A stretch of 16,029 nucleotides of DNA, taken from Pirellulaceae bacterium. GTDB taxonomy: Bacteria > Planctomycetota > Planctomycetia > Pirellulales > Pirellulaceae. The notes beneath the pieces were generated by a model, which did not search any database, had not been told where the DNA came from, and was given only the letters and a program-made list of their open reading frames with translations. Location: positions 1 to 16,029 of the forward strand of contig JADLDX010000602.1 of the NCBI GenBank assembly GCA_020846515.1, in the 5' to 3' direction. Shown here piece after piece: positions 1 to 15,836 of this stretch (positions are counted from its first letter, which is position 1; every line of letters starts with the position of its first letter). The position numbers were made by a program, and so were the translations under genes.

Positions 1-252
1 ACACTTTTGGCAGTCGCTTTCGAATGAGGCGTGTACCTGAGACAGCGGGCCGGTGCTCAATTGAAAAGACCTGGCGACCGTAGGTGGCTTGGCAGGTTGG
101 TCCAGCCATATGACCCAGCTGACGTAGACGCCCGAGAGACACAGACCGCAACCAATGGCCAACCAGCGCATCCAAGTGAGCCAAGTGCGCTGCCGATAGT
201 GCAGCACATCGATGCGCTGTGCCTTTTGCTTGCCTAGTTCTCGTTGTGACAT
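1..252 (-). CDS. Membrane-anchored c-type cytochrome, N-terminal part only (runs off the left edge)
   Basis: Reading the minus strand from an ATG at 252 gives 84 open codons to the window edge, so this is the 5' part of a gene. A basic, Gln/Arg-rich cytoplasmic start (MSQRELGKQKAQR...) is followed at about residues 27-50 by a hydrophobic segment (LTWMRWLAIGCGLCLSGVYV...) with no clear cleavage site, so it looks like a signal anchor. The outward part then reads STGPLSQVHASFESDCQKC, and the window stops exactly after the second Cys of what should be a CXXCH heme motif. The pattern 'GP.S..H..FE..C..C' is common at the start of multiheme modules. The gene begins 38 nt downstream of the diheme b-like gene on the same strand, so the two are probably co-transcribed and may form a membrane complex. 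No strong Shine-Dalgarno site is visible. The number of hemes cannot be seen. Confidence 0.8.
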   Translation of the reverse strand, partial: MSQRELGKQKAQRIDVLHYRQRTWLTWMRWLAIGCGLCLSGVYVSWVIWLDQPAKPPTVARSFQLSTGPLSQVHASFESDCQKC

Positions 253-290
253 CTGGGATTGGGCTAGCCGCAAGTGATTCGGAGATGGTC

Positions 291-1301
291 TCAATAACGC
301 AGGGCGGTGAAGATGTGGCCGACTAGTAACACGGTCACGGCTACGCTCAACCCGATATGTATCGGTAGCCAGTTGTGCAGCCAGGCATTTAGTTTCGATT
401 GAAGGTCGAACTGACGGCGTTCATCACAGTATTGTTCGAGGGCATCGATTAATTCGTCGCAGGAACTGCCACACTGAGACCGGGCGGCAGCAAAAAAAGC
501 ATTCGCGCGCAAGGCATCGGCCATCTCGCTGCCGCTGCGCCGGCCAAGCTTCAAATACGACTCAATTTTACGATACACCTGCCAAAGCTGTTGGGCATGT
601 TTCGGGTCGATCGAAATGTTGGCGGTGCGTAGCGTGCGTCCTCGAATACGCCCATTTGTGCGTACCGCTCCCAAGACAACAGTTGATGGCTTGGATGAGC
701 GGTACTCAAACGATTGGCTCTCGGTAACGTTTGTCGAATTTGGTTTGTCTGTTTTCTTGGCATCCGTCTCGTACAATTCGCCGGCAGGTGGTCCAACGAC
801 ACTGACCAGCAATGACAAGGCATTTTCGACATTCTGCTGGCTAACTTTTGGAATTTGGGAACAAACCGTCTCTGCCGGTACGTTTTTGAGGATTAGCTTG
901 GGAATAATGTGTTGCAGGCACCAGCCCATCAGCCCACTGATGATCGTCAACGTGAAAAGTACCAGGAACAGCGTTGGCAACAGGCCGCCCGTATGGAAGC
1001 CGCAGTGCACGTAGGCCAATGGCAAGCTGGCTAAGCCAAACCAAAGATGAGCGGCCAGCCAATGCTTAGCAGCCACCAATCGCCAGGCCCGCAAGAATTT
1101 CCTTGGCCAAAGCAACATCTCAAAAGCGATAATACTACCGGCCACGATTCCACATACGAGACCTGGCAGGCTACCACCGCGCAACCAATGGCCAGCATTC
1201 ACGGTCTCGATCAAGTACCAACCGATTAAGCCGCCGGCTAAGAGACTTGCTGCAACCGCCCATGGAGCATGGTTTCGTAGGTTCTTGCGGTCCAGTCTCA
1301 C
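291..1301 (-). CDS. Integral membrane protein, likely diheme b-type cytochrome with a soluble loop
   Basis: The 336-residue protein has hydrophobic segments at about 13-31, 46-64, 82-102 and 107-128 and a last one at about 312-333. His85 and His99 lie in the third segment and His315 and His329 in the last; each pair is exactly 14 residues apart. That is the spacing by which two helices clamp two stacked b hemes in cytochrome b and in ferric-reductase-like membrane domains. Between the helix groups lies a hydrophilic region (about 140-300) with Cys277 and Cys281 in CGSSC, which is not a heme c motif. I infer a quinol- or heme-linked membrane electron-transfer protein; no named family is certain. 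The start is GTG at 1301, chosen because no ATG precedes the first helix and the next Met is residue 62. The gene is followed after 38 nt by an anchored c-type cytochrome, which supports a redox role. Confidence 0.7.
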   Translation of the reverse strand: MRLDRKNLRNHAPWAVAASLLAGGLIGWYLIETVNAGHWLRGGSLPGLVCGIVAGSIIAFEMLLWPRKFLRAWRLVAAKHWLAAHLWFGLASLPLAYVHCGFHTGGLLPTLFLVLFTLTIISGLMGWCLQHIIPKLILKNVPAETVCSQIPKVSQQNVENALSLLVSVVGPPAGELYETDAKKTDKPNSTNVTESQSFEYRSSKPSTVVLGAVRTNGRIRGRTLRTANISIDPKHAQQLWQVYRKIESYLKLGRRSGSEMADALRANAFFAAARSQCGSSCDELIDALEQYCDERRQFDLQSKLNAWLHNWLPIHIGLSVAVTVLLVGHIFTALRY

Positions 1302-1381: not shown

Positions 1382-1526
1382 AAAATGTAGTGCAGAGGTT
1401 ACATCGTTCTAATTGTAGAGCAGTTGGATGTCAAATTCTGCGAATGTTGGCGTTTGAACGGCAATGAATTAGCATGATTTGGCATATTCCAGCAGCGCGA
1501 AATTCGCGAATGGCCAGATTCGCCCC

Positions 1527-1530
1527 GAGG
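1527..1530 (+). promoter_or_regulatory. Ribosome binding site deciding the start at 1536
   Basis: GAGG lies 5 nt before the ATG at 1536. It favours this start over an in-frame TTG at 1479, which would put 19 hydrophilic residues ahead of the signal peptide. Nothing else was seen in the 1382-1526 part of the spacer. Confidence 0.6.
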
Positions 1531-1535
1531 CTCGC

Positions 1536-3026
1536 ATGGTTCGAATCCAAAATGTTAAATTAGATTCGTGGTTCAGTACGGTAGGGGTTTTCGCATGTTT
1601 AGTGTTTGCTGGCAGGTTGGCAGTGGCCGATCCACCAGACACTTGGTTTGGTCAACATACCCAACCCCAGCAGCGGCGAGATCTACAATTGCATGCCTCG
1701 GCCTCGTGCAGCGCTACTGCCTGTCATGGTGGTCCCCGCGCTGGCGTGACGGCCACGGGGGCTGTTCGAGGTTCTGAATACCCCTTATGGCTTAGTTCGG
1801 ACCCGCATGCCCGGTCTTGGAGAACGCTGTGCAGTGATAAGTCGGTGGCCATTCTTAACCGACTCGAGATTCTAAAAAATGGCCACATTGCAGATCAGGC
1901 AGGATTCGACAATTGTCTGGCATGTCACAATAGCACGCAGCACTTTCAGGAATCAAGAACGACCGAACGGATCACTGAAGGCATAGGTTGCAGTAGTTGC
2001 CATGGTCCGGACCAACTGTGGCACGCAGCCCATTTGGAACGCGACTGGTCGCCCTCGGCTCAACTCGCCAGCGGCTTTGCGCAAACCAAGAACCTCTTGT
2101 CGAGAGCGCGTCTGTGTGCCAGTTGTCACGTGGGTGATCGTGATCGCGATATGAATCACGACATCATCGCCGCTGGTCACCCTGCCCTGCACTATGAGTT
2201 TGCAACATACCAGCGCCGGCAACCAAAGCACTGGAGAAGTGGCAAGACGCCCAAGGAAGACGACGAAGCCTATGCCTGGTTGGTAGGTCAACTAGCTTCC
2301 CTGGATGCTTTTTTGACTCTGCTCGAGTCGCGCGCCAGGACCAGCCATCGCGAGAGCCAGTGGCCAGAGCTGGCCGTCTTCGATTGCTCAAGCTGTCATC
2401 AACAGCTAACGAATGAAACCTACCAATTGCCGGCGCGAACCAACTCGTCGCCCACTTTATCGAATTGGCATCGTTTCGGGGTGCAGAAGTTCCTGAACTG
2501 GCGCAGCCAACAACCAACGTTCAGCTCGACCGATCAAGAACTGCTCGAAGCGTTAATGGACTTGGAACGCACTGTTAAATCTCCAACTGTCGATGCTCTA
2601 ACCGCTCAACAAGCTGCCCAGCGGGCTCGGCGAGCCTTAGATCGTTGGATAACGGGTCGAGATGGTCAGTTGGCCCTGAGTAGCTTCGACGCTGAGAAGC
2701 TTCATGAAATGGTTTCTGCCGCCGGTATGGACCAGTCGGCCAGTAGCAGTTGGGAAGCAGCCGCTCAGTTTTATCTGGCTTCCATTACCGCTCGGGAAAA
2801 ATGGTCAGACCTGTCCCATCAGCCCAACCGGGGCGAAACGGTCTTAGAAACTTCACGGCGTCTACGCGAGGCTCTACAATTTCAGGGGAATTCGGCGACG
2901 CCCAAGAACCGCTTCGGCGACTTCGGCGATAATGCGATAAACGCCCCTGGACCACAGTCGGTAAGGGCTCACTGGCAATCGCTGCAAAAGACTATCTCCA
3001 TTGATCAAGTGGAAGGGCCGCGCTAG
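1536..3026 (+). CDS. Exported pentaheme cytochrome c, cytochrome c554-like, with one CX4CH site
   Basis: The 496-residue protein starts with a signal peptide (MVRIQNVKLDSWF then a hydrophobic core) with likely cleavage after AVA at residue 31, so it acts outside the cytoplasmic membrane. Five heme attachment sites follow: CSATACH (58-64, four residues between the cysteines instead of two), CLACH (127-131), CSSCH (152-156), CASCH (194-198) and CSSCH (284-288). The segment after the first site (LWLSSDPHARSW) and the AAGHP motif near 212-216 give the look of the cytochrome c554-like multiheme group. The C-terminal 200 residues hold no heme site and seem mainly helical. It is a paralogue of the next gene, which starts 2 nt after its stop: both share the order heme, heme-heme, 'LC..CH.G', AAGHP, 'DCS.CH'. 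Likely role: periplasmic electron carrier; the partner and any catalytic activity are unknown. Confidence 0.85.
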   Translation: MVRIQNVKLDSWFSTVGVFACLVFAGRLAVADPPDTWFGQHTQPQQRRDLQLHASASCSATACHGGPRAGVTATGAVRGSEYPLWLSSDPHARSWRTLCSDKSVAILNRLEILKNGHIADQAGFDNCLACHNSTQHFQESRTTERITEGIGCSSCHGPDQLWHAAHLERDWSPSAQLASGFAQTKNLLSRARLCASCHVGDRDRDMNHDIIAAGHPALHYEFATYQRRQPKHWRSGKTPKEDDEAYAWLVGQLASLDAFLTLLESRARTSHRESQWPELAVFDCSSCHQQLTNETYQLPARTNSSPTLSNWHRFGVQKFLNWRSQQPTFSSTDQELLEALMDLERTVKSPTVDALTAQQAAQRARRALDRWITGRDGQLALSSFDAEKLHEMVSAAGMDQSASSSWEAAAQFYLASITAREKWSDLSHQPNRGETVLETSRRLREALQFQGNSATPKNRFGDFGDNAINAPGPQSVRAHWQSLQKTISIDQVEGPR

Positions 3027-3028
3027 CG

Positions 3029-4663
3029 ATGCATAAGGTATGTTTCATGATGCGAGTTTGGCATTCTAGACTTACATGCTTATGGCTGGTCCTAGCGACT
3101 ATATGTTTATGTCCCAACTCAACCGTTGGTCAGTCACCGAAGTTTGTTGCCGAGGGCCTCACCCAGGATGCGGTGTTCTGGGCCTGGAAAGGTAACGCTG
3201 AAGTACAGCAGTGCGGCTTTTGTCACTACGAGGCCGGCAACGAGTTTGCCTCGCGACTATCTGAACTGAGCCGCTTCATCGAACTCAAACTTTGGTTGGA
3301 AAAGGACAAGCATGCCATTGCTCGGCAGCGAATAGAACCGATCCCGACCGAACAGCAAGCTGGTCACTTAGCAGATCTGCGCGCTAAGATGGCCACCGCA
3401 AGCCAGCAGGCGATCTCCATACCGGACTATTGGCTCGGCCCAAGCAATGCGCTGAGCGCTCGGATCTGTCAGCAGTTGGGCAAAAACGTAAACACCCCGG
3501 ACGGCTATCAATGGTTTTGCGAAAGCTGCTTAACCTGCCATGGAGGCTATGAAGTTCAAAAGAGTGTCGCCAATCAGGGCAACAAACCCAAGCCGCCGGG
3601 AATTAGTTGTAGTTATTGCCATCAAGAAGCAAACGGTAACACACAGTGGATCGACTTGCATGCCGGATTAACGACCACGGATAAGTGGCGAGCGTTAACG
3701 CCACAGCAGAAGGCGACTGTGGGTATGCGCGATTTGACACCAGCCAGAGATCAGGCAGAGCTCTGTTTTCAATGTCACATTGGCAACATCGACAAAGGTA
3801 TGTTCGTGACACACGAGATGTACGCAGCTGGCCATCCGCCTCTGCCAGCGGTCGAGCTGCGCACGTTGATTGAAGAAATGCCTAGACATTGGCAAACCCC
3901 ACAGGATCTATTGGGGAAAGCGAGAGATACACACACGATTGCCGTTGGCGCACTGGTGGCAGAGAAGCAGTGGATCGAGTTGATGGTCGGAGCGGCAGCG
4001 TCGAAACACTGGGGCGATTATGCATTGTATGACTGCTCAGCTTGCCACCACGAGCTGAGAAATGACAGTCGACGACAAGCGTTGCGTTCGCCGGGTGCGC
4101 CGGGCCGTCCGCGCATGATCGAATGGCCGCACCCCGGCGCGATAGCTGTTACCGACTCGCTTGGAAACAAGAGTTTCAAGTCGTCGTTGGACCAGTTGCA
4201 CGCCGCCATCAAGAAGCGACCCTTCGGTGATCGCCAGGCAGTGGCCCAGATCGGTCAGACCTTGTCGAATCAAATTACCGAGTCGCTCGATCATCTGACG
4301 CTTGATCGCTTACCTGCCAATTACAGTCAGCGTCTGTTGTCGGCGTTGTGCGATACTTCCGCCGAGTCGCTGTTGGATTACCAAACCGCGCGTTGTGTCA
4401 ATTGGACGGCTCGTGGCCTTGTGCAAGCAGTTGGTGAGCAGGATAAAGAATTGTCTGACGCGGAGAAAAGGCTGGCGATGTTGGGTCAAATCATGGGACC
4501 GGACGGTAACAAACGCGTTGCGGTAACTCAGAGTCTGCCTGCCACCCAAAGCGAAATCATCTACCCCGACTTCGTGGAGCGTGAACTGCAGCGTCAACAA
4601 GCCTACGACTCAGACGCTTTCACAACGCAGCTCAGGGAAATCGGTCAAGCATTAAAGCCCTAG
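3029..4663 (+). CDS. Exported pentaheme cytochrome c, paralogue of the preceding gene
   Basis: The 544-residue protein begins with an export signal whose core is LTCLWLVLATICLCP, with probable cleavage near residue 35. Five CXXCH sites are visible: CGFCH (62-66), CLTCH (167-171, preceded by another Cys at 164), CSYCH (194-198), CFQCH (246-250) and CSACH (336-340). AAGHP occurs at 266-270, the same place relative to heme 4 as in the upstream paralogue. Compared with that protein, the spacing between the first and second heme is longer (about 100 residues), and the first site is canonical CXXCH rather than CX4CH. The C-terminal 200 residues are heme-free. The start at 3029 lies 2 nt after the previous stop, with GGAAGG at 3011-3016 upstream; ATGs at 3047 and 3050 are alternatives that would shorten the signal peptide. 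The two genes are surely one transcript, and the products may form a heterodimer (inference). Confidence 0.85.
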   Translation: MHKVCFMMRVWHSRLTCLWLVLATICLCPNSTVGQSPKFVAEGLTQDAVFWAWKGNAEVQQCGFCHYEAGNEFASRLSELSRFIELKLWLEKDKHAIARQRIEPIPTEQQAGHLADLRAKMATASQQAISIPDYWLGPSNALSARICQQLGKNVNTPDGYQWFCESCLTCHGGYEVQKSVANQGNKPKPPGISCSYCHQEANGNTQWIDLHAGLTTTDKWRALTPQQKATVGMRDLTPARDQAELCFQCHIGNIDKGMFVTHEMYAAGHPPLPAVELRTLIEEMPRHWQTPQDLLGKARDTHTIAVGALVAEKQWIELMVGAAASKHWGDYALYDCSACHHELRNDSRRQALRSPGAPGRPRMIEWPHPGAIAVTDSLGNKSFKSSLDQLHAAIKKRPFGDRQAVAQIGQTLSNQITESLDHLTLDRLPANYSQRLLSALCDTSAESLLDYQTARCVNWTARGLVQAVGEQDKELSDAEKRLAMLGQIMGPDGNKRVAVTQSLPATQSEIIYPDFVERELQRQQAYDSDAFTTQLREIGQALKP

Positions 4664-4871: not shown

Positions 4872-6689
4872 TTACTTGCTCAGTAAATTAAACACGGCAT
4901 CGAAGGGTTGGCTGGAGTTCATGGCATCGACGCAACGTTTCAGCATCAGCTTGCTAGGTGTATCGGTATCCCAGCATTTTTTGACATTGGCGAATTGTGC
5001 AATGGCCTCTGTGAAGTTTTGGGCTTCGAAGAGTTGGAGGGCCTGTTCATATCGTGAACACAAACTCTGCAAATCCTCATTCTCTTCCGGCATCAACTGA
5101 TAGATATCCACCGGCTCGGGAATACCCACGACGCGAATCCGCGATAACCTGCGCGATAGGAACGCTTGTGACAGCAAAGCGCGTGTGGACTCGGTAAAGA
5201 TACAACTGACACCGAACTTCTTCGTAATGCTTTCGACACGACTGGCCATGTTGACCGTGGTACCCAGCGGCCCGTACTTGAACTTGATACGTGAGCCCGT
5301 GTTACCAACGCGAGCGATGCCTGAATTGATTCCAATGCCAAGCTTAAAGTCTGTCGTCAAGGATTGATGTCGCGTGTTGAGTTCTGGCACGCGGCGGATC
5401 ATTTCCAGCGCCGCTCGACAAGCGCGTGAGGCATGGTCCTCTTGAGGCTCCGGAGCGCCGAACATGGCCATTACGGCATCGCCCACATAGTCAACCACCA
5501 CGCCGTCCTGATCCAAGATACACTCACTAAGACTGGTTAACACGTCGTTGATCCAACCGATCGTTTCCGTTGGTCCGACTTGATAAGCAATGCGACTGAA
5601 GCCACGAATGTCGCAAAACAGAATGCTAACCTCAGCATCTCGGCCTTCGAGCAGATCTTTTTGTTTGCTTAGTCGATCGAGCACGGATTTCGAAAAGAAT
5701 TGCCCGGTGGTGGTTCGAAACTCGGCATCTCTTTGTCGCAGCATGGCATTCGAGATGGCGCTGGCAACTATGTCCACTAAACTGGCTTGCAAGAGACTGA
5801 TAGGTTGGTCCTGGTATCCCAGCGATTTGTCGGCGTAAAGAATGGCCAGTACTTCGCCCGCGTCATCAAAAATGGGCGAAGCGACCGCGCGCTGAACACC
5901 CATCATCGAGAATTCCACCCGCCCAGATAGTTCAACGATCTGTGTCTCGCGCGAAGCCAAGACTCGTTGGATTAACGTGCGACTGAACCGACGACCTACG
6001 GTACTGCCATCGACGGCGATTGTTTCATCTGGACTAGCTGCGTCTGCAAGTTCCGTCGTTGGTATCCATTCATCTTTCTCTCGTTGAAGAATGGCCACCC
6101 GATCTACCTCGATCAGCTTGCGAACCGTCGTAGCGACAGAAGTAAAGAAATTGGGCGAACCCGGTACCTCGCTATACAATCGAAGAGCAGACTTAATCAG
6201 ATTGACCGCATCCGCTTGTATTTCCGGCGATACGTCCAGCAGCGATTGCTCTCGCTCGTACAATTGCCCCTGGGTTCTGAACTGCGCTAGCGAAACATAC
6301 TCGCCAAGGTTCTCGGCAGATTCGGAGGGTTGGATATGAACAGAGATACCATTCTGAAAGAATAGCGTAACTTCTTGATCAGCCTCTGGGGTGTTTGGTG
6401 CGGCAGAATTGCCCTGATCTGCTTGAGGTCCCAAACGGACTTCGCATGGCAAGGGCATCAAGGAGGCGACTGAGATCTTGCCGTCTTGTAGGCTGACGTT
6501 AACCGCTTGCCGCGGCATGCCGACGTCGACGATCTTGACCACGATCAAACGCCGCATATCACCGCGCGTTGAGACGCAGACCGGACGGAGGTCCAGTTCG
6601 TCTTTGTTTTGGCGACCAATCTGGAACGGCGGCTCGATTTGACCTCGACCAATAATCTGCGAGTCGCGCCGCACTTCGTAGTTCAGCAT
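4872..6689 (-). CDS. Class III nucleotide cyclase with degenerate FHA-like and GAF domains
   Basis: The 605-residue cytoplasmic protein has an FHA-like region (about 1-120, with IGR at 24-26 but without the usual S-x-x-H and final Asn), a GAF-like sensor domain (about 155-315), a linker helix (about 316-350), a class III cyclase domain (about 352-535) and a helical TPR-like tail. Visible catalytic residues are the metal-binding Asp360 (FCDIRGFS) and Asp404 (DYVGDAVMAMFG), and the transition-state pair Asn480 and Arg484 (TVNMASR). The positions that usually choose the purine base, Lys before YxGD and Asp/Thr in the 'YxxxG' loop, seem to be Asp400 and Gly473, so ATP versus GTP cannot be read from sequence. 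It would make cAMP or cGMP in response to a ligand or redox cue sensed by GAF (inference). It lies 80 nt downstream of the decaheme gene on the same strand and may be its operon partner. Confidence 0.88.
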   Translation of the reverse strand: MLNYEVRRDSQIIGRGQIEPPFQIGRQNKDELDLRPVCVSTRGDMRRLIVVKIVDVGMPRQAVNVSLQDGKISVASLMPLPCEVRLGPQADQGNSAAPNTPEADQEVTLFFQNGISVHIQPSESAENLGEYVSLAQFRTQGQLYEREQSLLDVSPEIQADAVNLIKSALRLYSEVPGSPNFFTSVATTVRKLIEVDRVAILQREKDEWIPTTELADAASPDETIAVDGSTVGRRFSRTLIQRVLASRETQIVELSGRVEFSMMGVQRAVASPIFDDAGEVLAILYADKSLGYQDQPISLLQASLVDIVASAISNAMLRQRDAEFRTTTGQFFSKSVLDRLSKQKDLLEGRDAEVSILFCDIRGFSRIAYQVGPTETIGWINDVLTSLSECILDQDGVVVDYVGDAVMAMFGAPEPQEDHASRACRAALEMIRRVPELNTRHQSLTTDFKLGIGINSGIARVGNTGSRIKFKYGPLGTTVNMASRVESITKKFGVSCIFTESTRALLSQAFLSRRLSRIRVVGIPEPVDIYQLMPEENEDLQSLCSRYEQALQLFEAQNFTEAIAQFANVKKCWDTDTPSKLMLKRCVDAMNSSQPFDAVFNLLSK

Positions 6690-6769: not shown

Positions 6770-9700
6770 TTACCGAAAGCTTGACGGCATCGGTGTCTGG
6801 CCGGTTCGAGACGCGTTGCCATTATACCGGTGGACTTGAGCATCACCAAGCACTCGATAGACCTTGGAATCAAAGATGTTATCGCTGGTCCACCACATCG
6901 ATCCATCAGGGCGATGCGTCATGCGCCGCAGTTCAGTCAAATTCAACGGACGTGCGCCGATGCGGCCAAAGACGGCGATCTGATGTCCCGATTCGTCCAC
7001 CGCGCGGTCGCGATCCATACCACGACTAATCGCCAATGCGTGGCCACCCTTGGGTAGTTTGTACGTCGCCACGAGAGCCGGCTGCGGTCGCGGGCTGAAA
7101 CCGTCGTTGCCATTAATTTCTGGACTGGTCAACTGAATGACCCGCAAACCATTCACTCCATCCGCCACGTAAGCAAATTGACTGACATTGGTAATGCCCA
7201 ACTGAACATCATGCGCATCGTTGATGCAACCACGGGCATCATAAACCTGGTCGATAAAAGCTGCATCGGGTCGAGTAACATCCAGGATTACCAAACCGTG
7301 TTTACCTGCGGCCACGTAGGCGTATGTCCGGGCAACATAGATCGAATGGGCATCGCTCAATGGGACATGATGAACAACTTTAGGTTGCGCGGGGGTGGAT
7401 ATATCGAGCACGGCAACGCCATGATGATCCGTCACAAATGCATATCGAAATTGCGCTGTCACGCTGTGGGGATGCGATAGATGTTCAGCTTCGCCGACGA
7501 TGGCGGTGATTTTAGGCTTGAGAGGTTCGTTGAGATCGACGACCACCAGTCCCTTGTCACAGCAGACATAAGCATATGTCCCGACAAACGCGATTGACTT
7601 GGCTCCGCACAACAAACCATTCGGATTGAACGTAGCGGCGCGCTCCAAATAGTTGTTCAGCGGATTGCCGTCTAGAAGTGTGCCTGCCCCGACCAGAATC
7701 AAACCTTCGTACTTGTCCGCTACATAGACGTAAGCGTACAAGGGGTGTATCGCGGGCTCTTGATTGTTCGGATCCTGCTTGCGCGTTGGATCGGGCGCAA
7801 TGGTCGTCGGCGCAGCCACGGCCTGCGCGTACTTGGTACGCACGTAGAATCGTTGTCCCAGTGGCGATACTGGCGCTGTTGTAATCCGTTCAGCGAACGC
7901 TTTGTGGTCGATAAAAGCGATATCGAAGATTCTCAGTCCGCCTTCGCCGCAGGCCGCATACAGGTATTCACCACGATGCTGGATATCGAGCACCTCAGGC
8001 TTTCGGTAACTGGGCGAGATAGCTTCGAGGATATCGCGGCCGGGATGTTCATGACTGTGCTCCAGCAAGCCATCTTTCTCGCGATGCTCGCGATAATTGT
8101 TTGGGTAAGCGGTTGCGTGCAGTGAACTACCAATGACTGCTTGGGGTTCACTGGTCTCGGTGACGACCACAGCTTCGAATCCGTGCTCGCCGGCGGCTAC
8201 GTAGCAATACTTGCCGATGAAGTTAGTGAAACCGGTGCCCTGCATCGACAGTTGGGACATGATGGCATTGTTGTCGTTGTTTACCGAAAGATGGCAATCG
8301 GTACAGCTCTTGGTCTCAAACGTCCCGGACTTTGAATGGGATGTTTCATTTTTCCATCCCGGGCCGCCGCGGACCGTGTGCGGTACGTTGGTCGAGAACG
8401 CGATGCCGCTCAGTCCATCTCCGCTGATCGTTTGCTGTTGAGCATAAATGGATTCGCGGTTGGAATTGTAACTACTAACATGAATGGCACAGCTGCTTCG
8501 CGCGGGGCCAATGCGATTGCCTGTGACATCGCCGTCGCGAGCCAACATGAAGACGTCATCACGCAATGTTTGAAAGTTGTAGCTGGTTCGATTGCGCGAG
8601 ACATCGCCCATATTGTGTAACTCTGGCGATTTGATATTGGCTTTCTGTGGCAAGTGGCAACCGAAGCAGCTTGGGTTCCAACTGCTGTGGCACGAGATAC
8701 AGGACATGTTTTTGTCGCTATGTCGACAGTTATCGAAGTCGGCTTGTGTCGTGCCGCCCCACTCCACTTTGCCGTCGGCACCCAATCTGGCCGACTTAGC
8801 CGCGTGGCTGCGCGGATTGTAATTCGGGTTGTCTGGACGCACTGTGTCGGCCGTTTGAGTGATCTCCCAAGTTAGATTGGGTTCCACAGTGCTCCGCTGA
8901 ATCAGACGCGGACGTTCGCCCGGTTCCTGCACGATCTCAAACTGAGGCTTGCCGAACGTGGTGCGGAGAGCCAGTAAGTTCGTGCCGTCGATCGCGGCGG
9001 CTGGTCCCGTAGTTGGCAGTCGCAACGGTTTACCCTCGGCGGCCTGCTGATTGAGCTTTTCCAGCAGACTTTGGCTGGCCGTGCCATGACAATCTATGCA
9101 CTGGATTTCGATAGCCGCACGCACTTCGCCATATAACTTGCCATCACCATGCGAGTCCTGATAGAAATGGCAATCGGTACAATGCATACCGCGCTCCATA
9201 TGGATATCCATCATGTGCACGGGCAGGCCATCGCGCTGCTTGCCGGTTTGCTTCTCCTGGTCGCTTGGCGGCACCATGGCAGCCTGCAGAGTTTCTGAAT
9301 TGACTTGGACCGGGGCTCCTCGCCAATCGAGCAATTGCCCCGAGCGATCTTTTTTGTACACAGCCCGAAACACCCAGCCGTGGCCATGAAAGTCGGCGAA
9401 CTGTGTGTGCTTCAGATGTGGATTCAGGTCGGTGACATTCGCTAAGAACTCAGGATCACCCCAATGGCCGCGCACCGCGGCTTCTTCTGGATTGCTCATC
9501 GTCGTTTGGATATACTCTTCCGCCGTCGGCTCCTTTTGATGTTTGGGGTACATCAATTGCCCATCGGTTTCGTTGTCCCACCACATGTAACCCAAATATG
9601 TGTTGAGCACGTTGGTGCCAGGATGGATATGGCATACCATGCACTGACTAGTCGGCATGCGTAATTCAAACTTGTGTTGAATCGGATGGCCAGATTGGGT

Positions 9701-11137
9701 TTTGGAAATGGTGGGATCAATCGCTTGGACCCATTCATCCGTTTGGGCTGCCGCCAAACCTCGATTGCCGTACTTGGCCAAGAAACCGCTGGCGATGGGA
9801 TCGCGATCGTTGGCATACAGGACATGGCAGGCCGAACAACCGCTGCTGCGATAGTCACCCGCATGGTCATTGGTGCCCATGAAGTTGAGCGTTGGGTCGA
9901 GCAGTCGCGTCTTTTGCAAGCCGATAAAGACAGGGTCGGTACGATTCTCGGTACCCAGGCCTCGATTGCTTAGGCGTTCGCGCGGTCTACCGGCTTCTTC
10001 CAGACGTTCAGGGATGCCAGTCTCCGCGCGAAAGCGTCCGCCGCGCTCGAAGATGCGCAGGATGTTGCCTGGCTGCGACACTTGATACGGAATCAAAGGT
10101 TCTAAGAACGGCAACACACCCTTCTTACGGATCTCCTCCTCTGTGGGTGCGGGCACGGTCATGACGCGCTGCGGCACGCCATGCATGCTATAGCTTTCAC
10201 CGTATCGGGGGCGTTTGTCGGATACGCCGCCATTGTTGTAAAGCGCTGCGCCCCACAACATACATCCATGCGTCATCATGCTGGTGCGAAGCTGCAACAC
10301 TTCCTTGGCATGGCATTGACCGCAAGCGATATGAGCCACGCGCGAGTCGCCGGGATTGACGAAGCGCACAAATTCGGGCGATTCATGATTGAGCAAGGTG
10401 TAACTGCGCACGGGATTGGCTGCGCCTTTCCAGACTTCGGCAAATCGTGCTGGCACGTGGGCTTGGCGTATATCGTTACAATCTGCATTGCCGCCGTGGC
10501 AATCGGTACAGCCAATGCGCACCGAATTGATGGGATGCATGTGCCCCACGTCGGTATGACAACCAATACACGACCGACTCTTGCTGGCCGCCTCGTCCGC
10601 CGTCTGATGGATCATGTCCGTATGTCGCATCGACTCGGGAATGGGATACGACGTATTGTCGGCCACGCCTAAGCGACGCGCATATTCCCAAGGGTCCGCA
10701 CCTTTGTACGCAATATTGGCTTCGTTGCGATCGCTGAATCGCGAATGATAACCATTGAATTCCGGTAAGGGGACCTTAACTTGATCGGATGCCGCTGGCA
10801 TGGGCGCTGCTGACATACTCGACGGTGACAAGGCCGTTGTGGATGGTAGCGTGTTTGGAAATTGCTTGGGTTGGCTGACCGGGCCCGAGTGGGGCTGTGT
10901 TGAGCCGGCTGGAACGACACGATTGTTGTGTGCGCGACCGGTTTGATAACCAGCATCTTTTACTGGGTTGCCAGGGCTCTGGGGTGCACGGGGAATTGGC
11001 TTGGGCTGTTGGAACAGTCGCTTGACCTGGCTTTGCAAAGTTGGCCGGTCCTGGGCGCATGCCGTTGAAACGACAGCCCATCCGCACAGCAGACAACTGA
11101 AGCGAAACGCGAGTCCACGCCAGCCATTAACACTCAT
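6770..11137 (-). CDS. Decaheme cytochrome c fused to a seven-repeat LVIVD-type beta-propeller
   Basis: The protein has 1455 residues. A signal peptide ends near STACA|QD (residue 28). A Pro/Ser/Gln-rich linker (about 30-120) follows. Ten CXXCH sites lie at 190, 210, 272, 434, 499, 653, 680, 813, 824 and 945 (CIGCH, CTDCH, CGQCH, CSACH, CMVCH, CTDCH, CIDCH, CISCH, CFGCH, CTDCH). The region is rich in His that can serve as distal ligands. From about 976 to 1340 there are seven repeats of the type YAYVAAGKHGLVILDV (also YCYVAAGEHG, YLYAACGEGGLRIFDI, YAYVYVADKYEGLILV, YAYVCCDKGLVVVDL, YAFVTDHHGVAVLDI, FAYVADGVNGLRVIQL), as in LVIVD-repeat propellers. The start is ATG at 11137, with AGGAAG 6 nt upstream; a GTG at 11161 is rejected. 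It follows a beta-barrel gene by 45 nt, which suggests an outer-membrane electron conduit or surface reductase. I do not recognise a named enzyme. Confidence 0.9.
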   Translation of the reverse strand: MSVNGWRGLAFRFSCLLCGWAVVSTACAQDRPTLQSQVKRLFQQPKPIPRAPQSPGNPVKDAGYQTGRAHNNRVVPAGSTQPHSGPVSQPKQFPNTLPSTTALSPSSMSAAPMPAASDQVKVPLPEFNGYHSRFSDRNEANIAYKGADPWEYARRLGVADNTSYPIPESMRHTDMIHQTADEAASKSRSCIGCHTDVGHMHPINSVRIGCTDCHGGNADCNDIRQAHVPARFAEVWKGAANPVRSYTLLNHESPEFVRFVNPGDSRVAHIACGQCHAKEVLQLRTSMMTHGCMLWGAALYNNGGVSDKRPRYGESYSMHGVPQRVMTVPAPTEEEIRKKGVLPFLEPLIPYQVSQPGNILRIFERGGRFRAETGIPERLEEAGRPRERLSNRGLGTENRTDPVFIGLQKTRLLDPTLNFMGTNDHAGDYRSSGCSACHVLYANDRDPIASGFLAKYGNRGLAAAQTDEWVQAIDPTISKTQSGHPIQHKFELRMPTSQCMVCHIHPGTNVLNTYLGYMWWDNETDGQLMYPKHQKEPTAEEYIQTTMSNPEEAAVRGHWGDPEFLANVTDLNPHLKHTQFADFHGHGWVFRAVYKKDRSGQLLDWRGAPVQVNSETLQAAMVPPSDQEKQTGKQRDGLPVHMMDIHMERGMHCTDCHFYQDSHGDGKLYGEVRAAIEIQCIDCHGTASQSLLEKLNQQAAEGKPLRLPTTGPAAAIDGTNLLALRTTFGKPQFEIVQEPGERPRLIQRSTVEPNLTWEITQTADTVRPDNPNYNPRSHAAKSARLGADGKVEWGGTTQADFDNCRHSDKNMSCISCHSSWNPSCFGCHLPQKANIKSPELHNMGDVSRNRTSYNFQTLRDDVFMLARDGDVTGNRIGPARSSCAIHVSSYNSNRESIYAQQQTISGDGLSGIAFSTNVPHTVRGGPGWKNETSHSKSGTFETKSCTDCHLSVNNDNNAIMSQLSMQGTGFTNFIGKYCYVAAGEHGFEAVVVTETSEPQAVIGSSLHATAYPNNYREHREKDGLLEHSHEHPGRDILEAISPSYRKPEVLDIQHRGEYLYAACGEGGLRIFDIAFIDHKAFAERITTAPVSPLGQRFYVRTKYAQAVAAPTTIAPDPTRKQDPNNQEPAIHPLYAYVYVADKYEGLILVGAGTLLDGNPLNNYLERAATFNPNGLLCGAKSIAFVGTYAYVCCDKGLVVVDLNEPLKPKITAIVGEAEHLSHPHSVTAQFRYAFVTDHHGVAVLDISTPAQPKVVHHVPLSDAHSIYVARTYAYVAAGKHGLVILDVTRPDAAFIDQVYDARGCINDAHDVQLGITNVSQFAYVADGVNGLRVIQLTSPEINGNDGFSPRPQPALVATYKLPKGGHALAISRGMDRDRAVDESGHQIAVFGRIGARPLNLTELRRMTHRPDGSMWWTSDNIFDSKVYRVLGDAQVHRYNGNASRTGQTPMPSSFR

Positions 11138-11143
11138 TTGCAA

Positions 11144-11149
11144 CTTCCT
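11144..11149 (-). promoter_or_regulatory. Ribosome binding site of the decaheme-propeller gene
   Basis: On the minus strand AGGAAG lies 6 nt before the ATG at 11137. It is the best Shine-Dalgarno match in the window and places the start just ahead of the signal peptide. Confidence 0.65.
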
Positions 11150-11182
11150 GTCGCTTAGCACGTCGACGCTTCCGATTCGGGA

Positions 11183-13111
11183 TTAGTATTCAAACGTGGT
11201 TTCGAGGAAGCCGGCGATATGATTCCGGGTTTGCCCGTCCAAGTCTTGAAACAGGTCGCGGAATCCGTCGCCCGCCAGCAGAGTACTCAAGCCTGATACC
11301 AACAAAATGTTGTTATTGAGCAAGGGCCGGTATTCGGCACCCAAGCTCACATCTGTCCCGATAAAGTTCCGGACCTCGCCAGTGAAGAGGTAAGTCTCAA
11401 GCACTTCGGTCTGATTGAACCACAAGAGATTTGTGTTTTGGATGAGCCGCAATTTGGGCGTTAGATCGCTATCTACGCCAAAGTTCACCAAGTGTAAACC
11501 TGGATTCACAAAGTTTGTTTGCCCTTGGAATTTGCCGTTGCGCATACTGGGCGTCAAACTCAAGCGATTGGTTAACTCAACACCAAACAATCGAATGCCT
11601 TGACGTCCCCAGTAACTGAACTCGGTACCGGCAAAGTTTGGATTGGCGAAAATGGCATCAAAGCCGGTTGCATGTTCGTTGTTGGGGTCGGCGTCGCCCG
11701 AACTATAAAAATACGAAGTACGAAAACGCATCCAGTCTCGGTCGTACGATAGCTCCAAAGCTCCCATCCAGGCGCTAATGTCTTGCCGCCGTCCAGCAAT
11801 GGGATTGAGTAAGTCTTGACCGAAAACATAGTAGAGCGCGCTCGACACATTGATGCGTTCGATATGGCCATTGCTGGCAGCGCCCAAGTAGTAGGATCGT
11901 ACTTCGTGAGGTTGGAACACGCCCACCGGATCAGGTCGAACAAGAAAATTGTTGAGGTCGAACTCTCGACTGGCTTTGTCGCGATTGGCGTGCATCGATA
12001 CGTTGACGTTGTAGCCCGGGTAAAGAAAGTCTTGCCGATAGTAGTTGGCAATCAGTGTGTTCTGATGGCGATCTTTCTCCAGCCGATTTAATAAGCTATT
12101 GGAGTCTTTTTCCATCTGGTCAAACCAGATAACGTTGTATTGATCGCGATTGGCTTGCCGGGTTCCAAACAACCTAACGGCACGGTTGGTATCAGAAAAG
12201 ATGAAGCCGCGAAAGTCGCTGGTAAACGTCTGACTGCCAACGCGCGTGGACAAGAAGTCATAATACGGACTGGTATCGATGAGCTTGGCCTCGGCGAACC
12301 ACTCTTGCAACGTGAAGTCCTGCCGAAAACGACTTTGCCCGGAGCGAACGTCCGGGCTGACTACTGCCAGTTCGTCGGCAACCAGGTGATTCATGTTGAA
12401 AACGGACTCGACCTTGATGCGCCAGTCCGGTGGCTTAAATGACGTATTTCCGTGAAACAAGTCGAACGATAGCGAGGTATTCTGTGCGAATGTATAAGAA
12501 TCGGGATCGCCAAAGAAACCGGCGTCAAATGGATTGCGAGTCGCTTCGAAAGGTGTGATTGGGGTCGGCAGGTCCCGTGCTTCAAACAGATTGAAGTTTT
12601 TGGCGTTCAGTCGTAGAAACGCATGTTGCCCAAAGATGGGGTAGTCACCTTTCAGTACGTTCTGGTTGTATGGGTCCCAGAGTGAGCCCTCCACTCCCAA
12701 GTAGTCGTCTTGTCCCGGATGACCTTTGCCATAACGATCATAGTCGGGAATTCCCAAACGCCAGCGATCTTCAATAGGTTCGAATTGGGCGACCGACTGT
12801 TGTTCCCGCGGAGCTATGCCGCTTGGGCCGGTGTAACCATGGGGAGCATCGTCCGGCATCTGGATAAAGGGCGTGCGCAGATCGATCAGCGGATCTGGTG
12901 ACGGTAATGCCTGGCCGATTTCAAACGGGTCCCGTAGTACCTTGGGTTTTGCGTCTGAGGCATTGCCTGCTGAGCCTCCTAAGGCAGGAGAAAGTCTCAA
13001 CAACTCGCCCGAAACAATCGGAGCAGGCGTGTTCTCAGACGGAGCCTGGCCAAAAGCGGCCAGGGCCAAGCCAGCAGCGATGACTAAGGTTAGCGTGGGG
13101 CGCAAACGCAT
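11183..13111 (-). CDS. Outer-membrane beta-barrel protein (putative porin of a porin-cytochrome pair)
   Basis: The 642-residue protein starts with a textbook signal peptide (MRLRPTLTLVIAAGLALAAFGQ|A). After a Pro-rich segment of about 100 residues it consists of alternating polar/apolar stretches rich in Tyr, Phe, Trp, Asn and Asp, such as YNVNVSMHANRDK, RFRTSYFYSSGDADPNNE and LRLIQNTNLLWFNQTEV. The chain ends in LETTFEY, with the C-terminal aromatic residue used by the BAM machinery. The Asp/Asn-rich turn after SSGDADP recalls AlgE-type (alginate export) and porin barrels. No cysteine heme motif is present. The gene lies 45 nt upstream of the decaheme cytochrome, so the barrel may hold that protein as MtrB holds MtrA; this is inference from order. 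The start was set at ATG 13111, directly before the signal peptide; an in-frame ATG at 13204 would add 31 residues and leave only 23 nt to the divergent gene. Confidence 0.75.
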   Translation of the reverse strand: MRLRPTLTLVIAAGLALAAFGQAPSENTPAPIVSGELLRLSPALGGSAGNASDAKPKVLRDPFEIGQALPSPDPLIDLRTPFIQMPDDAPHGYTGPSGIAPREQQSVAQFEPIEDRWRLGIPDYDRYGKGHPGQDDYLGVEGSLWDPYNQNVLKGDYPIFGQHAFLRLNAKNFNLFEARDLPTPITPFEATRNPFDAGFFGDPDSYTFAQNTSLSFDLFHGNTSFKPPDWRIKVESVFNMNHLVADELAVVSPDVRSGQSRFRQDFTLQEWFAEAKLIDTSPYYDFLSTRVGSQTFTSDFRGFIFSDTNRAVRLFGTRQANRDQYNVIWFDQMEKDSNSLLNRLEKDRHQNTLIANYYRQDFLYPGYNVNVSMHANRDKASREFDLNNFLVRPDPVGVFQPHEVRSYYLGAASNGHIERINVSSALYYVFGQDLLNPIAGRRQDISAWMGALELSYDRDWMRFRTSYFYSSGDADPNNEHATGFDAIFANPNFAGTEFSYWGRQGIRLFGVELTNRLSLTPSMRNGKFQGQTNFVNPGLHLVNFGVDSDLTPKLRLIQNTNLLWFNQTEVLETYLFTGEVRNFIGTDVSLGAEYRPLLNNNILLVSGLSTLLAGDGFRDLFQDLDGQTRNHIAGFLETTFEY

Positions 13112-13165
13112 AATGACGGCGCTGGTAATTGGGGAGGACTTTTTGGACTGCGAAGATCTTATCGG

Positions 13166-13194
13166 TTGAATGGAGTTGGCGGCTGGAGCATAAT
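13166..13194 (+). promoter_or_regulatory. Possible sigma70-like promoter for the dockerin/GlcG protein
   Basis: TTGAAT (13166-13171) and CATAAT (13189-13194) are spaced by 17 nt, which would start transcription near 13202, about 26 nt before the ATG at 13228. It lies within the 116-nt spacer between divergent genes. The match is reasonable but short motifs like these occur by chance. Confidence 0.3.
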
Positions 13195-13227
13195 CTTCAT
13201 ACAATCTCTCAAAATGGTAAAATATTC

Positions 13228-15696
13228 ATGTTGCGCAAACTTTTTCGCTCGCACGTGCAGGCTCGTCCACGCCCGTTGGCTTTTGAGCAATTTGAACAGC
13301 GCCACATGATGGCTGACTGCGGGCGGCACAATGTCACTTTGCCGGCCGACGTCGATACCGACCGTGTGGTTGCTCCTATCGATGCCTTAATACTGATCAA
13401 CTTACTGAACAACGATGTTGATCGCAGTTTGTGCTCGTCCAACGCCAGCGGTGAAGAGACTTTGTTGGTCGATGTCAACAACGATGGCTGGCTGTCCCCC
13501 ATCGATGCCTTGCTGGTCATCAACAACATCAATGAGGCCAATTCCCAGCAGGTACTGAGTAAGAAAGCCCAGTTTCCGTCCAGCTTGAGCGAGAAAGACG
13601 CGGTGGCTGGAAATTTAATTTTGGCATCCGAAGTTCAAACCTTGCTCACACGAGCCTCACAGGCGAGTCGTTCTAACGATGCCATCATCGCTGTGGTGGA
13701 TCGCTCGGGCAATATTCTGGGAGTGCGTGTCGAAGAGGGGGTGACCATAACGGATGCCAAGGAGCTGGCCTTTGCTATCGATGGCGCGGTTGCCAAAGCC
13801 AGGACGGCTGCCTTCTTCAGCAGCAATGCCGCTCCTTTGACCAGCCGCACCATTCGCTTTATCAGTCAGTCGACGATGACTCAGCGTGAAGTCGAATCGT
13901 CGCCGGGCAACATTAACCCACAATATCAGGGACCAGGGTTTGTGGCTCCGATTGGTGTGGGTGGACATTTTCCACCGGAAGTACCATTCACACCACAAGT
14001 GGATTTGTTCGCGATTGAACATCAAAGCCGGGATAGCCAGTCGATAAATGCTGGTGCCGATGGCCAGCGTGGGACAGCCGACGATCTGAAATTGGCTAAT
14101 CGATTTAATGTCGATAAAGATTACGTGGCTCTTGGAGCTGAGAAGTTTTTTGAAACCTGGCCAGAGTCCTATGGAGTTGCGTCAGGCACGGATCCGGCTG
14201 GCCAGTCACGCGGGATCGCTACGCTGCCGGGTGGCATTCCTCTGTATAAAGATGCCGTTGTTAAGGACGTTAGCCAAGGCATCAATCTAGTCGGCGGTAT
14301 AGGCGTGTTCTTCCCGGGATCTGACGGGTTTGCGACGCATGAGCAAGGCTTCTTGCATACCTCTGAAAACAATGGTGTCACGCAGAGCGAAGCTCAACGC
14401 ACAAATGCCTCACGCGTGCTGGAGAGTGAGTTTATCGCGTTAGTGGCTGCGACGGGTGGCGGCTTCGTTGGCCCAGCGTCCCTGGTCCGCGATTTGACAG
14501 AGTTCAACAGCAAACTTGCACCACTACCCAACTTCCGAATGCCGATTGGTAGACTAGATTTGGTGGGCATTACGCTCGAGGTCTTCGGTCCCAATCCCAC
14601 GACGGATAGTCCCAGACCAGGTTTGGATCGGTTGATCAAAGTTGGTCGCACCCTAGGCCCGCTTGGTGCGTCGAGCGGCAGTGACCAAATTGTGAACCCA
14701 GCAAAACAGCAATATCTGGGTGGCCAGCCAGTCCCTGAACGATGGTTAGTCATACCCCATGATTCATCGGTCAGCAGTTTGAAGGCCGCACACGTCGAGC
14801 AGATGATTCATCAAGCGATCGCGCAGGCAGAGTTGACTCGGGCGGCGATTCGATTGACCGACAAGTTCCGGCCTGGCGCGCGGACCAGCATGGTCATATC
14901 CGTGGCAGATACCAATGGCGAATTGCTGGGCGTGTACCGCATGCCCGATGCTACCGTCTTCTCCATTGATGTATCGGTCGCCAAGGCCCGCAATACCGCC
15001 TATTATGCTGATGCCCAAAGCTTGCAAGCCGTCGACCGGGTTGACTTCAATCAAGATGGTGTGTTCGGTACGGTGACAACCAGCTTGACCGGTGGCGATA
15101 CACTACCCTTGGGAACGGCGCTGACCAATCGCACTTTTCGTTTCTTAGCCGAGCCACGATATCCGACGGGGATTGAGTTTGGTCCCGTCAACGGCCTGAT
15201 CAACGATCCAAATAAACAGCTCATTGATCAGCGCCCGGACATAGCCGCGCAGATTGGACCGTTCAGTATCCTGCAGCTTCCTGGCATCCATCCCAAGACT
15301 GGTGAAAATTTAGTAAACGACGTTCCGCTGTCAATCGAAGTCTATGCTTCGGCCAGTACATCCAGTCCCGTGGCGTTTGATGCGTTCAATCCGAGCCGCA
15401 ACTTCCGCGATCCAGGTGATGAAGGCGTGATGATTGCTGAGAAAAACGTGGCTTACCCATTAGCCAATCAAAATGGCATAGTCTTCTTCCCCGGTAGTAC
15501 TCCGGTCTATGTCGGCGGTTCATTATTGGCCGGAGGCTTGGGCGTGAGCGGCGACGGTGTCGACCAAGACGACGTGGTGACCGCCTATGGACAAATCGGC
15601 TTCGCCGCTCCAGATACTTTACGTGTCGACAATTATTCGATCGGCAGCGTGCGATTGCCTTTCCAAAAGTTCAATCGCAATCCCAATGGTGCGTAG
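13228..15696 (+). CDS. Secreted protein with dockerin-like repeats and two GlcG/HbpS-like (heme-binding family) domains
   Basis: The 822-residue protein begins with MLRKLFRSHVQARPRPLAFE; the motif RPLAFEQFEQRHMMA (15-29) is the export/sorting type seen at the start of many planctomycete surface proteins. Two dockerin-like Ca-binding loops follow: DVDTDRVVAPIDALILIN (from 41) and DVNNDGWLSPIDALLVIN (from 82). Next come two GlcG/HbpS-like domains. The first has IIAVVDRSGNILGV...AKARTAAFF in its N half (about 128-217) and GGIPLYKDAV...GGIGVFFPG in its C half (334-367). The second has VISVADTNGELLGVYRMPD...AKARNTAYY (about 519-597) and GSTPVYVGG...GGLGVSGDGVDQDD (748-792). In both, an insert of more than 100 residues separates the halves. 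HbpS relatives bind or degrade heme, which fits the cytochrome neighbourhood, but heme binding here is inferred. The start at 13228 sits directly before the export motif; an upstream ATG at 13129 is in frame but unlikely. Confidence 0.8.
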   Translation: MLRKLFRSHVQARPRPLAFEQFEQRHMMADCGRHNVTLPADVDTDRVVAPIDALILINLLNNDVDRSLCSSNASGEETLLVDVNNDGWLSPIDALLVINNINEANSQQVLSKKAQFPSSLSEKDAVAGNLILASEVQTLLTRASQASRSNDAIIAVVDRSGNILGVRVEEGVTITDAKELAFAIDGAVAKARTAAFFSSNAAPLTSRTIRFISQSTMTQREVESSPGNINPQYQGPGFVAPIGVGGHFPPEVPFTPQVDLFAIEHQSRDSQSINAGADGQRGTADDLKLANRFNVDKDYVALGAEKFFETWPESYGVASGTDPAGQSRGIATLPGGIPLYKDAVVKDVSQGINLVGGIGVFFPGSDGFATHEQGFLHTSENNGVTQSEAQRTNASRVLESEFIALVAATGGGFVGPASLVRDLTEFNSKLAPLPNFRMPIGRLDLVGITLEVFGPNPTTDSPRPGLDRLIKVGRTLGPLGASSGSDQIVNPAKQQYLGGQPVPERWLVIPHDSSVSSLKAAHVEQMIHQAIAQAELTRAAIRLTDKFRPGARTSMVISVADTNGELLGVYRMPDATVFSIDVSVAKARNTAYYADAQSLQAVDRVDFNQDGVFGTVTTSLTGGDTLPLGTALTNRTFRFLAEPRYPTGIEFGPVNGLINDPNKQLIDQRPDIAAQIGPFSILQLPGIHPKTGENLVNDVPLSIEVYASASTSSPVAFDAFNPSRNFRDPGDEGVMIAEKNVAYPLANQNGIVFFPGSTPVYVGGSLLAGGLGVSGDGVDQDDVVTAYGQIGFAAPDTLRVDNYSIGSVRLPFQKFNRNPNGA

Positions 15697-15721
15697 GCCG
15701 TAATCGCTCAGTGCTTGTCAC

Positions 15722-15751
15722 GGCTACCATTTCTCATGATGGATCGTAGCC
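15722..15751. terminator. Inverted repeat after the dockerin/GlcG gene, possible terminator
   Basis: GGCTAC (15722-15727) pairs with GTAGCC (15746-15751) around an 18-nt loop, 25 nt after the stop codon. There is no U-run, so a Rho-independent terminator is doubtful. GTAGCCA is also the end of the units in the 4664-4854 array, so this may be a decayed copy of that repeat. Confidence 0.35.
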
Positions 15752-15758
15752 ATTGTTA

Positions 15759-15836
15759 AAGCGGAATCGGCGCGAGCCGTCCGGTTCCGCCTGGCTTTTC
15801 TCGGAGAAACACCGGGCAGCTTGCGCTGCTCCGCTT
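15759..15836. repeat. Composite palindromic repeat, copy A (78 nt)
   Basis: The unit has a hairpin CGGC-GCGA-GCCG enclosed by GCGGAA and TTCCGC, a 25-nt middle, and a second hairpin GCAGC-TTGC-GCTGC. The same plan returns in copy B at 15945-16021. It is an intergenic REP/BIME-like element, not a gene. Confidence 0.75.

Follow-up and report, generated by a model that had tools for sequence, protein, structure and literature searches.

A linked β-barrel and giant decaheme-propeller cytochrome in Planctomycetota and on sphingomonad plasmids as a probable outer-membrane electron conduit

In Shewanella MtrCAB and Rhodopseudomonas PioAB, a β-barrel gene lies beside the gene of a decaheme cytochrome and electron transfer across the outer membrane is presumed. 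The same arrangement is found in a 16,029-nucleotide stretch from a Pirellulaceae bacterium (contig JADLDX010000602.1), which at its full length is referred to below as the window. Here, the gene of an outer-membrane β-barrel (11183–13111, minus strand) precedes that of a giant decaheme c-type cytochrome with a C-terminal LVIVD β-propeller (6770–11137, minus strand), and the two products probably form the outer-membrane end of an electron-transfer chain that spans the envelope. Unlike in MtrCAB, one giant cytochrome with a propeller replaces MtrA plus MtrC. MtrB and PioB barrels have about 26–28 strands and are wide enough to take a decaheme. The barrel described here has 18 in its structure model, and neither it nor the giant cytochrome matches the family models of those systems.

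The figure of 28 corresponds to the motifs predicted for MtrB in PMC5877670, where Geobacter ExtI is predicted at 12 strands, unlike the 18 found here. In the Geobacter ext cluster (extHIJKLMNOPQS), a porin and a b-type cytochrome are encoded together with several multiheme cytochromes that bind 4, 5, 10 or 12 hemes (PMC5877670). The giant cytochrome resembles this system in that short stretches of it match the ExtM model (E = 4.2e-17) at 61.7 and 64.0 bits, below the curated cut-off of 800; unlike the ext cluster, no Rieske or rhodanese domain occurs among the window genes scanned. Verrucomicrobial clusters also combine a porin, for which 20 or more strands are predicted, with a multiheme cytochrome, and several include an extracellular multiheme gene; compared by description, their periplasmic cytochromes are eight-heme, unlike the one here (PMC5615132).

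In June 2026, 11 porin-cytochrome clusters with a decaheme gene of 4–5 kbp and a porin of about 20 strands were reported from metagenome-assembled genomes (MAGs) of Sterkfontein ghost rock, in a paper that also counts two Planctomycetota MAGs with porin-cytochrome complexes (PMC13264449). With a decaheme gene of 4.4 kb, ten hemes and an 18-strand barrel, the window locus is similar by description to what that paper calls its first group. The bare porin-decaheme pair is already in print. In contrast, the propeller, an HbpS-like protein and a plasmid location are not mentioned for the first group as described, and an HbpS partner, co-inherited inner-membrane genes and plasmid spread were not found in the available text of PMC13264449. 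Porin-cytochrome genes are also reported from MAGs of Planctomycetota and KSB1 (PMC10732223), so that the preliminary description of the window, which had considered such conduits little described in this group, has to be tempered in this respect. MtrCAB is placed in three phyla by PMC8805035, the available text of which does not contain the string 'planctomycet', and PMC10654088 concerns another system. A literature search with most subscription journals outside its coverage returned no paper joining HbpS and multiheme cytochromes, and none on Sphingobium together with multiheme and extracellular electron terms.

The barrel gene begins with an ATG at 13111 and stops at 11183, encoding 642 amino acids with a signal-like N-terminus (MRLRPTLTLVIAAGLALAAFGQAPS) and a final Tyr, in agreement with the signal-bearing protein with an aromatic end that was initially proposed. 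Its structure model (mean predicted local distance difference test (pLDDT) = 78, predicted template modelling score = 0.75) is a closed barrel with 18 strands of at least 10 residues, spanning model residues 141 to 618 (+23 for protein numbering). The model is poorly resolved before residue 134, and confidence is low in a conserved pre-barrel segment, the QNVLKGDYPI region, which is a candidate contact for the giant cytochrome. In two fold searches, AlgE chains were the nearest folds followed by OprD-type porins, and the barrel may be described as AlgE-like. MtrB was not among the 50 matches listed in either search, which by itself is no evidence. Against sequences of solved structures, the window barrel gave no match at E ≤ 1 and its alignment none at E ≤ 10. 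A barrel clearly belonging to polysaccharide export had been named at the outset as a finding that would speak against a conduit; five of 60 barrel members weakly point that way by matching PF13372 (Alginate_exp) at E ≤ 1 (best 2e-5), while the window barrel did not match. Another porin model, DESULF_POR1, was matched by 14 of the 60 at E ≤ 1 (best 4.1e-5).

The giant cytochrome likely starts at an ATG at 11137 that is preceded by AGGAAG and lies 45 nucleotides after the barrel stop, within an open reading frame that runs to 11161. Ten CXXCH motifs are present, whereas in 2,000 shuffles of the same protein the count averaged 0.03 and never exceeded 2. The N-terminus is signal-like. The propeller is identified by an LVIVD match (PF08309, E = 1.1e-19). 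The spacing, export, ten hemes and propeller are therefore as initially described. By a crude rule, for which start codons are uncertain and some genes were counted twice, 19 of 91 giant genes have a lipobox, 65 have a signal-like stretch only and seven have neither. A homologue trimmed to 1,200 residues was used for modelling (mean pLDDT = 55). Residues 961–1170 are confident and strand-rich (10-residue means of 71–94), residues 771–960 are mixed (28–92), and the heme part lies mostly below 50 with a better stretch at about 331–600. The best 50 Foldseek matches listed for this model are mostly propeller proteins by title. In one related locus (L132, cytochrome gene 11724–15797), the propeller is about 40 residues shorter than in close homologues such as that of L130, owing perhaps to the loss of a blade or to faulty assembly.

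All 60 aligned sequences, among them the window protein and a few genes counted twice, keep the ten motif histidines; motif 3 is CX4CH in some homologues. A further eleven histidines of the heme part, outside the motifs, are conserved in at least 97% of the 60. These are enough for bis-histidine ligation of ten hemes, which suits electron transfer rather than catalysis, and no CXXCK motif is present in the protein. Compared to sequences of solved structures, the protein matched a single nitrite-reductase stretch (E = 0.58); its alignment matched propeller and nitrite-reductase stretches, all weakly, and nothing else. No relative turned up when viral contigs were scanned.

Kinship with MtrB/MtrA or PioB/PioA, which the preliminary description had suggested, finds no support for the barrel-giant pair in family scans or in the strand count and is rejected, and the AlgE- and OprD-type folds are in keeping with this. 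Pfam and NCBIfam both hold MtrB/PioB models; none matched the window barrel at E ≤ 0.1 or the 60 members at E ≤ 1. Neither TIGR03508 (MtrA/DmsE) nor TIGR03507 (MtrC/OmcA) matches the giant cytochrome at E ≤ 0.1. Both weakly match the tetraheme protein of the window, which is discussed below.

Linkage of the two genes was followed in 60 genomes of relatives (G000 included), in 294 genomes of the phylum and in named genomes, the unnamed and named sets overlapping partly. Eight of the 60 relatives encode the barrel and the same eight encode the giant cytochrome. The genes adjoin on one contig in seven; in the eighth (G017), the cytochrome leaves the contig end and continues on another. Within the phylum, the barrel is found in 32 genomes and the giant (E ≤ 1e-20) in 33, covering all 32, with the giant directly following the barrel in 28. 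In the other four, both genes lie at contig ends (G337), are divergent (G062), have about 8 kb between them (G282) or are unlinked (G331). The extra giant-bearing genome, G103, contributes a distant match with nine CXXCH motifs (L113, 1598–6478, plus strand), a weak match to the propeller part and a lipobox-like N-terminus. A 15-heme protein with an N-terminus that is FHA-like by eye is encoded nearby (10227–12917, minus strand), and no barrel relative occurs among the open reading frames of this stretch.

At least 561 stretches of named genomes encode barrel relatives, of which the best 80 were kept. Among these, 77 have planctomycete titles, including Neorhodopirellula pilleata, Rhodopirellula sallentina, R. 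maiorica, Rubripirellula obstinata, Roseiconus nitratireducens and Limnoglobus roseus, and three are titled 'bacterium' only, in line with the planctomycete origin first proposed. The titles of MAG records L134, L141, L148, L192, L128 and L129 (Candidatus Kuenenia stuttgartiensis or Pirellula staleyi DSM 6068) are probably misnomers. The giant is directly downstream in 57 of the 80 loci, within about 10 kb in two and absent from the flank in 11; the remaining 10 end too soon. Direct adjacency is seen in 57 of the 70 testable loci, and all 13 genomes without it (11 + 2) encode the giant. In the broad sense of a barrel gene linked to a multiheme gene, this is a porin-cytochrome system.

The giant cytochrome is also encoded on twelve Sphingobium plasmids and one of Sphingopyxis (41–45% identity over 98% of the query), with the barrel directly beside it on all 13 records. 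From PLSDB, two of these plasmids are predicted to be conjugative and 11 non-mobilizable. Two further records of the plasmid search, both Gloeothece, match only part of the propeller (28% identity). Three plasmid loci were read, and by annotation or order each encodes a multiheme protein, a heme-binding or HbpS-like protein, the barrel and the giant. On Sphingobium herbicidovorans pMSHV, a tetraheme, an HbpS-like protein, the barrel and the giant are encoded in this order by genes that overlap or almost abut, and family scans back the assignment of the cytochromes and of the HbpS-like protein. A facing cluster encodes a protein with flavin adenine dinucleotide (FAD), cyclic-nucleotide-binding (cNMP) and 4Fe-4S domains, a b561-like protein and an FHA-decaheme. 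The FAD/4Fe-4S/cNMP protein recalls the ferredoxin-NADP reductase that lies near seven of the 11 clusters in the ghost-rock first group (PMC13264449, in its available text); no such reductase is among the eight window proteins scanned. The decaheme of this inner-membrane cluster matches the MtrC/MtrF domain model PF22113 (38.5 bits, cut-off 30), a match that falls below the cut-off for the planctomycete decaheme and for the pentaheme of the window. The module is flanked (L208:1–6611 and 26071–27750) by ShlB/FhaC/HecB-type secretion annotations and a 2,092-residue hypothetical protein. The Sphingobium sp. TomTYG65 locus has similar gene sizes and order, with most genes named hypothetical. A FastTree phylogeny of 60 giants, with G103 as the root, nests the sphingomonads among planctomycete sequences, beside two genomes (local support 0.996). 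Because this root is weak, it makes the direction of transfer likely without proving it.

Other genes of the window are inherited with the pair. Divergent from the barrel gene, an HbpS-like protein (13228–15696, plus strand) comprises three PF03928 stretches, scoring 61.6 bits against a gathering score of 25, and a dockerin type I domain; its reading frame opens at 13129 and the ATG at 13228 was chosen as the start. Of 70 named loci in which 3 kb or more of sequence precede the barrel, 52 have an HbpS-like gene upstream of it in divergent orientation. Full-length relatives (E ≤ 1.4e-150) occur in exactly the eight pair-bearing genomes of the 60, and weaker matches (E ≥ 1.3e-17) in 31 others, most of those listed being to the dockerin part. 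Relatives of an exported pentaheme cytochrome (3029–4663, plus strand) are likewise found in the eight (E ≤ 8.2e-23), plus one weak match elsewhere. The adjoining exported C554-like cytochrome (1479–3026, plus strand) is the tetraheme mentioned above; its translation contains four CXXCH and, by eye, one CX4CH, as do many of its relatives, and it may therefore bind five hemes.

A membrane protein (291–1301, minus strand) is probably a b-type cytochrome. It has no Pfam match of its own, but its relatives weakly match the cytochrome b561 and ferric reductase models (PF01292 or PF01794), below their cut-offs, and five histidines, one in a predicted helix, are 75–92% conserved in 12 aligned relatives (one gene counted twice); together, these suggest the assignment. 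Its relatives occur in the eight pair-bearing genomes (E ≤ 3.4e-19) and weakly in eight others (E ≥ 7.7e-9). Across the phylum, 20 of 294 genomes encode it at E ≤ 1e-8, of which 19 are giant-bearing. At the contig end, which cuts the gene, lies the N-terminus of a membrane-anchored multiheme cytochrome (1–294, minus strand) that weakly matches the Sphingobium FHA-decaheme (27% over 70 residues, E = 3e-4). An inner-membrane decaheme query matched six of the eight pair-bearing genomes plus one weak other. The G+C fraction varies little over the window, between 0.515 and 0.571.

The cNMP/Fe-S protein was dropped as a marker of co-occurrence since it matches 43 of the 60 relatives at E ≤ 1e-10 and does not discriminate; its relatives are also widespread without the barrel-giant pair. 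In G004, G009, G022, G026, G042 and others, which have no barrel pair, such relatives stand beside weak relatives of the b-type-like protein, and this suggests a wider family of cNMP/Fe-S and b-type-like inner-membrane complexes. The Fe-S proteins of related loci (e.g. L208:20509–22986, minus strand) have at least two cyclic-nucleotide-binding stretches. In the window, the pentaheme and giant genes are separated by the gene of an adenylate/guanylate cyclase with a GAF domain (4872–6689, minus strand), a possible regulator with relatives in nine of the 80 named loci. These domains and the cyclase hint at possible control by cyclic nucleotides.

That a barrel, a ten-heme protein, smaller multihemes and a b-type-like protein are inherited together is most simply explained by an electron path that spans the entire envelope. 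In this path, the cytochrome-b-like protein and the membrane-anchored decaheme would receive electrons from a cytoplasmic Fe-S protein that has cyclic-nucleotide-binding domains, from the quinol pool, or from both. The smaller multiheme cytochromes would ferry electrons through the periplasm to the giant decaheme which, held by the 18-strand barrel, would hand them outside, where the propeller and the HbpS-like protein may dock an acceptor or shuttle. The heme motifs, the predicted barrel fold, and the content, linkage, conservation and co-occurrence of the genes are observed; we infer complex formation, heme order, propeller location and electron direction as set out in this path. The closed barrel, the frequent linkage, the strict co-occurrence and the co-inherited membrane and multiheme genes fit the outer-membrane conduit that was first proposed.

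Several observations weigh against this account. With fewer strands than MtrB, the barrel may not accommodate a multiheme domain; an MtrAB-style sheath around the decaheme is doubtful on the present model. The heme part of the giant is too poorly modelled for any geometry to support a wire. The nearest folds of the barrel are substrate or polymer channels, and the crude N-terminus rule, which found a lipobox in 10 of 116 barrel genes and a signal-like stretch only in 75, found neither in 31. The preliminary description had counted unlinked genes in relatives as adverse; the pair is unlinked in 11 of 70 testable named loci, all of which encode the giant elsewhere in the genome. The b-type-like protein is without a match at E ≤ 1e-8 in 14 of 33 giant-bearing phylum genomes, and the decaheme query missed G000, in which the gene is cut at the contig end, and G012. 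Only 21 of the 80 named loci have even one of the genes for the pentaheme, the tetraheme, the decaheme and the b-type-like protein in the flank, so that these often lie in another place or past a contig end. Sphingopyxis indica pMC4 has the four-gene operon with no inner-membrane cluster within 12 kb on each side. The co-occurrence probabilities ignore kinship. Finally, many hosts, Rhodopirellula and Sphingobium included, are aerobes not known to respire metals.

A variant of the same conduit would run inward, drawing electrons from extracellular donors, and is rather unlikely. It would suit hosts that are aerobes, and the FAD and Fe-S domains of the pMSHV-linked protein could accept electrons. 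The hosts of the pair are also heterotrophs, which argues against this variant and is the reason that the outward direction is favored over it with some, but not great, confidence. It is unlikely that the barrel is instead an AlgE/OprD-type solute or polymer channel and the giant a redox enzyme or electron sink acting on the transported compound at the outer membrane or beneath it, with hemes carrying no electrons across the membrane. The nearest folds agree with this explanation, but a shared fold shows no function, the giant has no CXXCK while its conserved histidines suffice for bis-histidine ligation, and the strict co-inheritance with multiheme and b-type-like genes is unaccounted for. 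Surface iron or heme acquisition, in which the giant would reduce ferric iron or heme outside, the HbpS-like protein handle it and the barrel take it up, is improbable: the position of the HbpS-like gene in most testable named loci and in the plasmid operon and the weak ferric reductase matches of the b-type-like relatives would suit it, but the annotations around the three plasmid loci, where many genes are 'hypothetical' and to which the search was confined, include neither an iron transporter nor a TonB-dependent receptor.

Extending the electron-transfer reading, it is possible, though tentative, that the locus represents a horizontally moved chain that evolved apart from Mtr. In such a chain, a single decaheme-propeller giant would act through an AlgE-like 18-strand barrel with the HbpS-like protein as an essential third subunit, and entry of electrons would be cNMP-gated via linked Fe-S proteins. 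Its origin would lie in Planctomycetota, or its route would have led through them, before it came to plasmids of sphingomonads, of which two are predicted to be conjugative.

If the conduit is real, many planctomycetes, some of them cultured, and some plasmid-bearing sphingomonads would share extracellular electron exchange as a patchily inherited trait. More organisms could then be tested for a part in the cycling of carbon and metals, and culturable hosts would be at hand for genetics. It would also mean that electrons can be moved past the outer membrane by way of a narrower barrel than that of MtrB.

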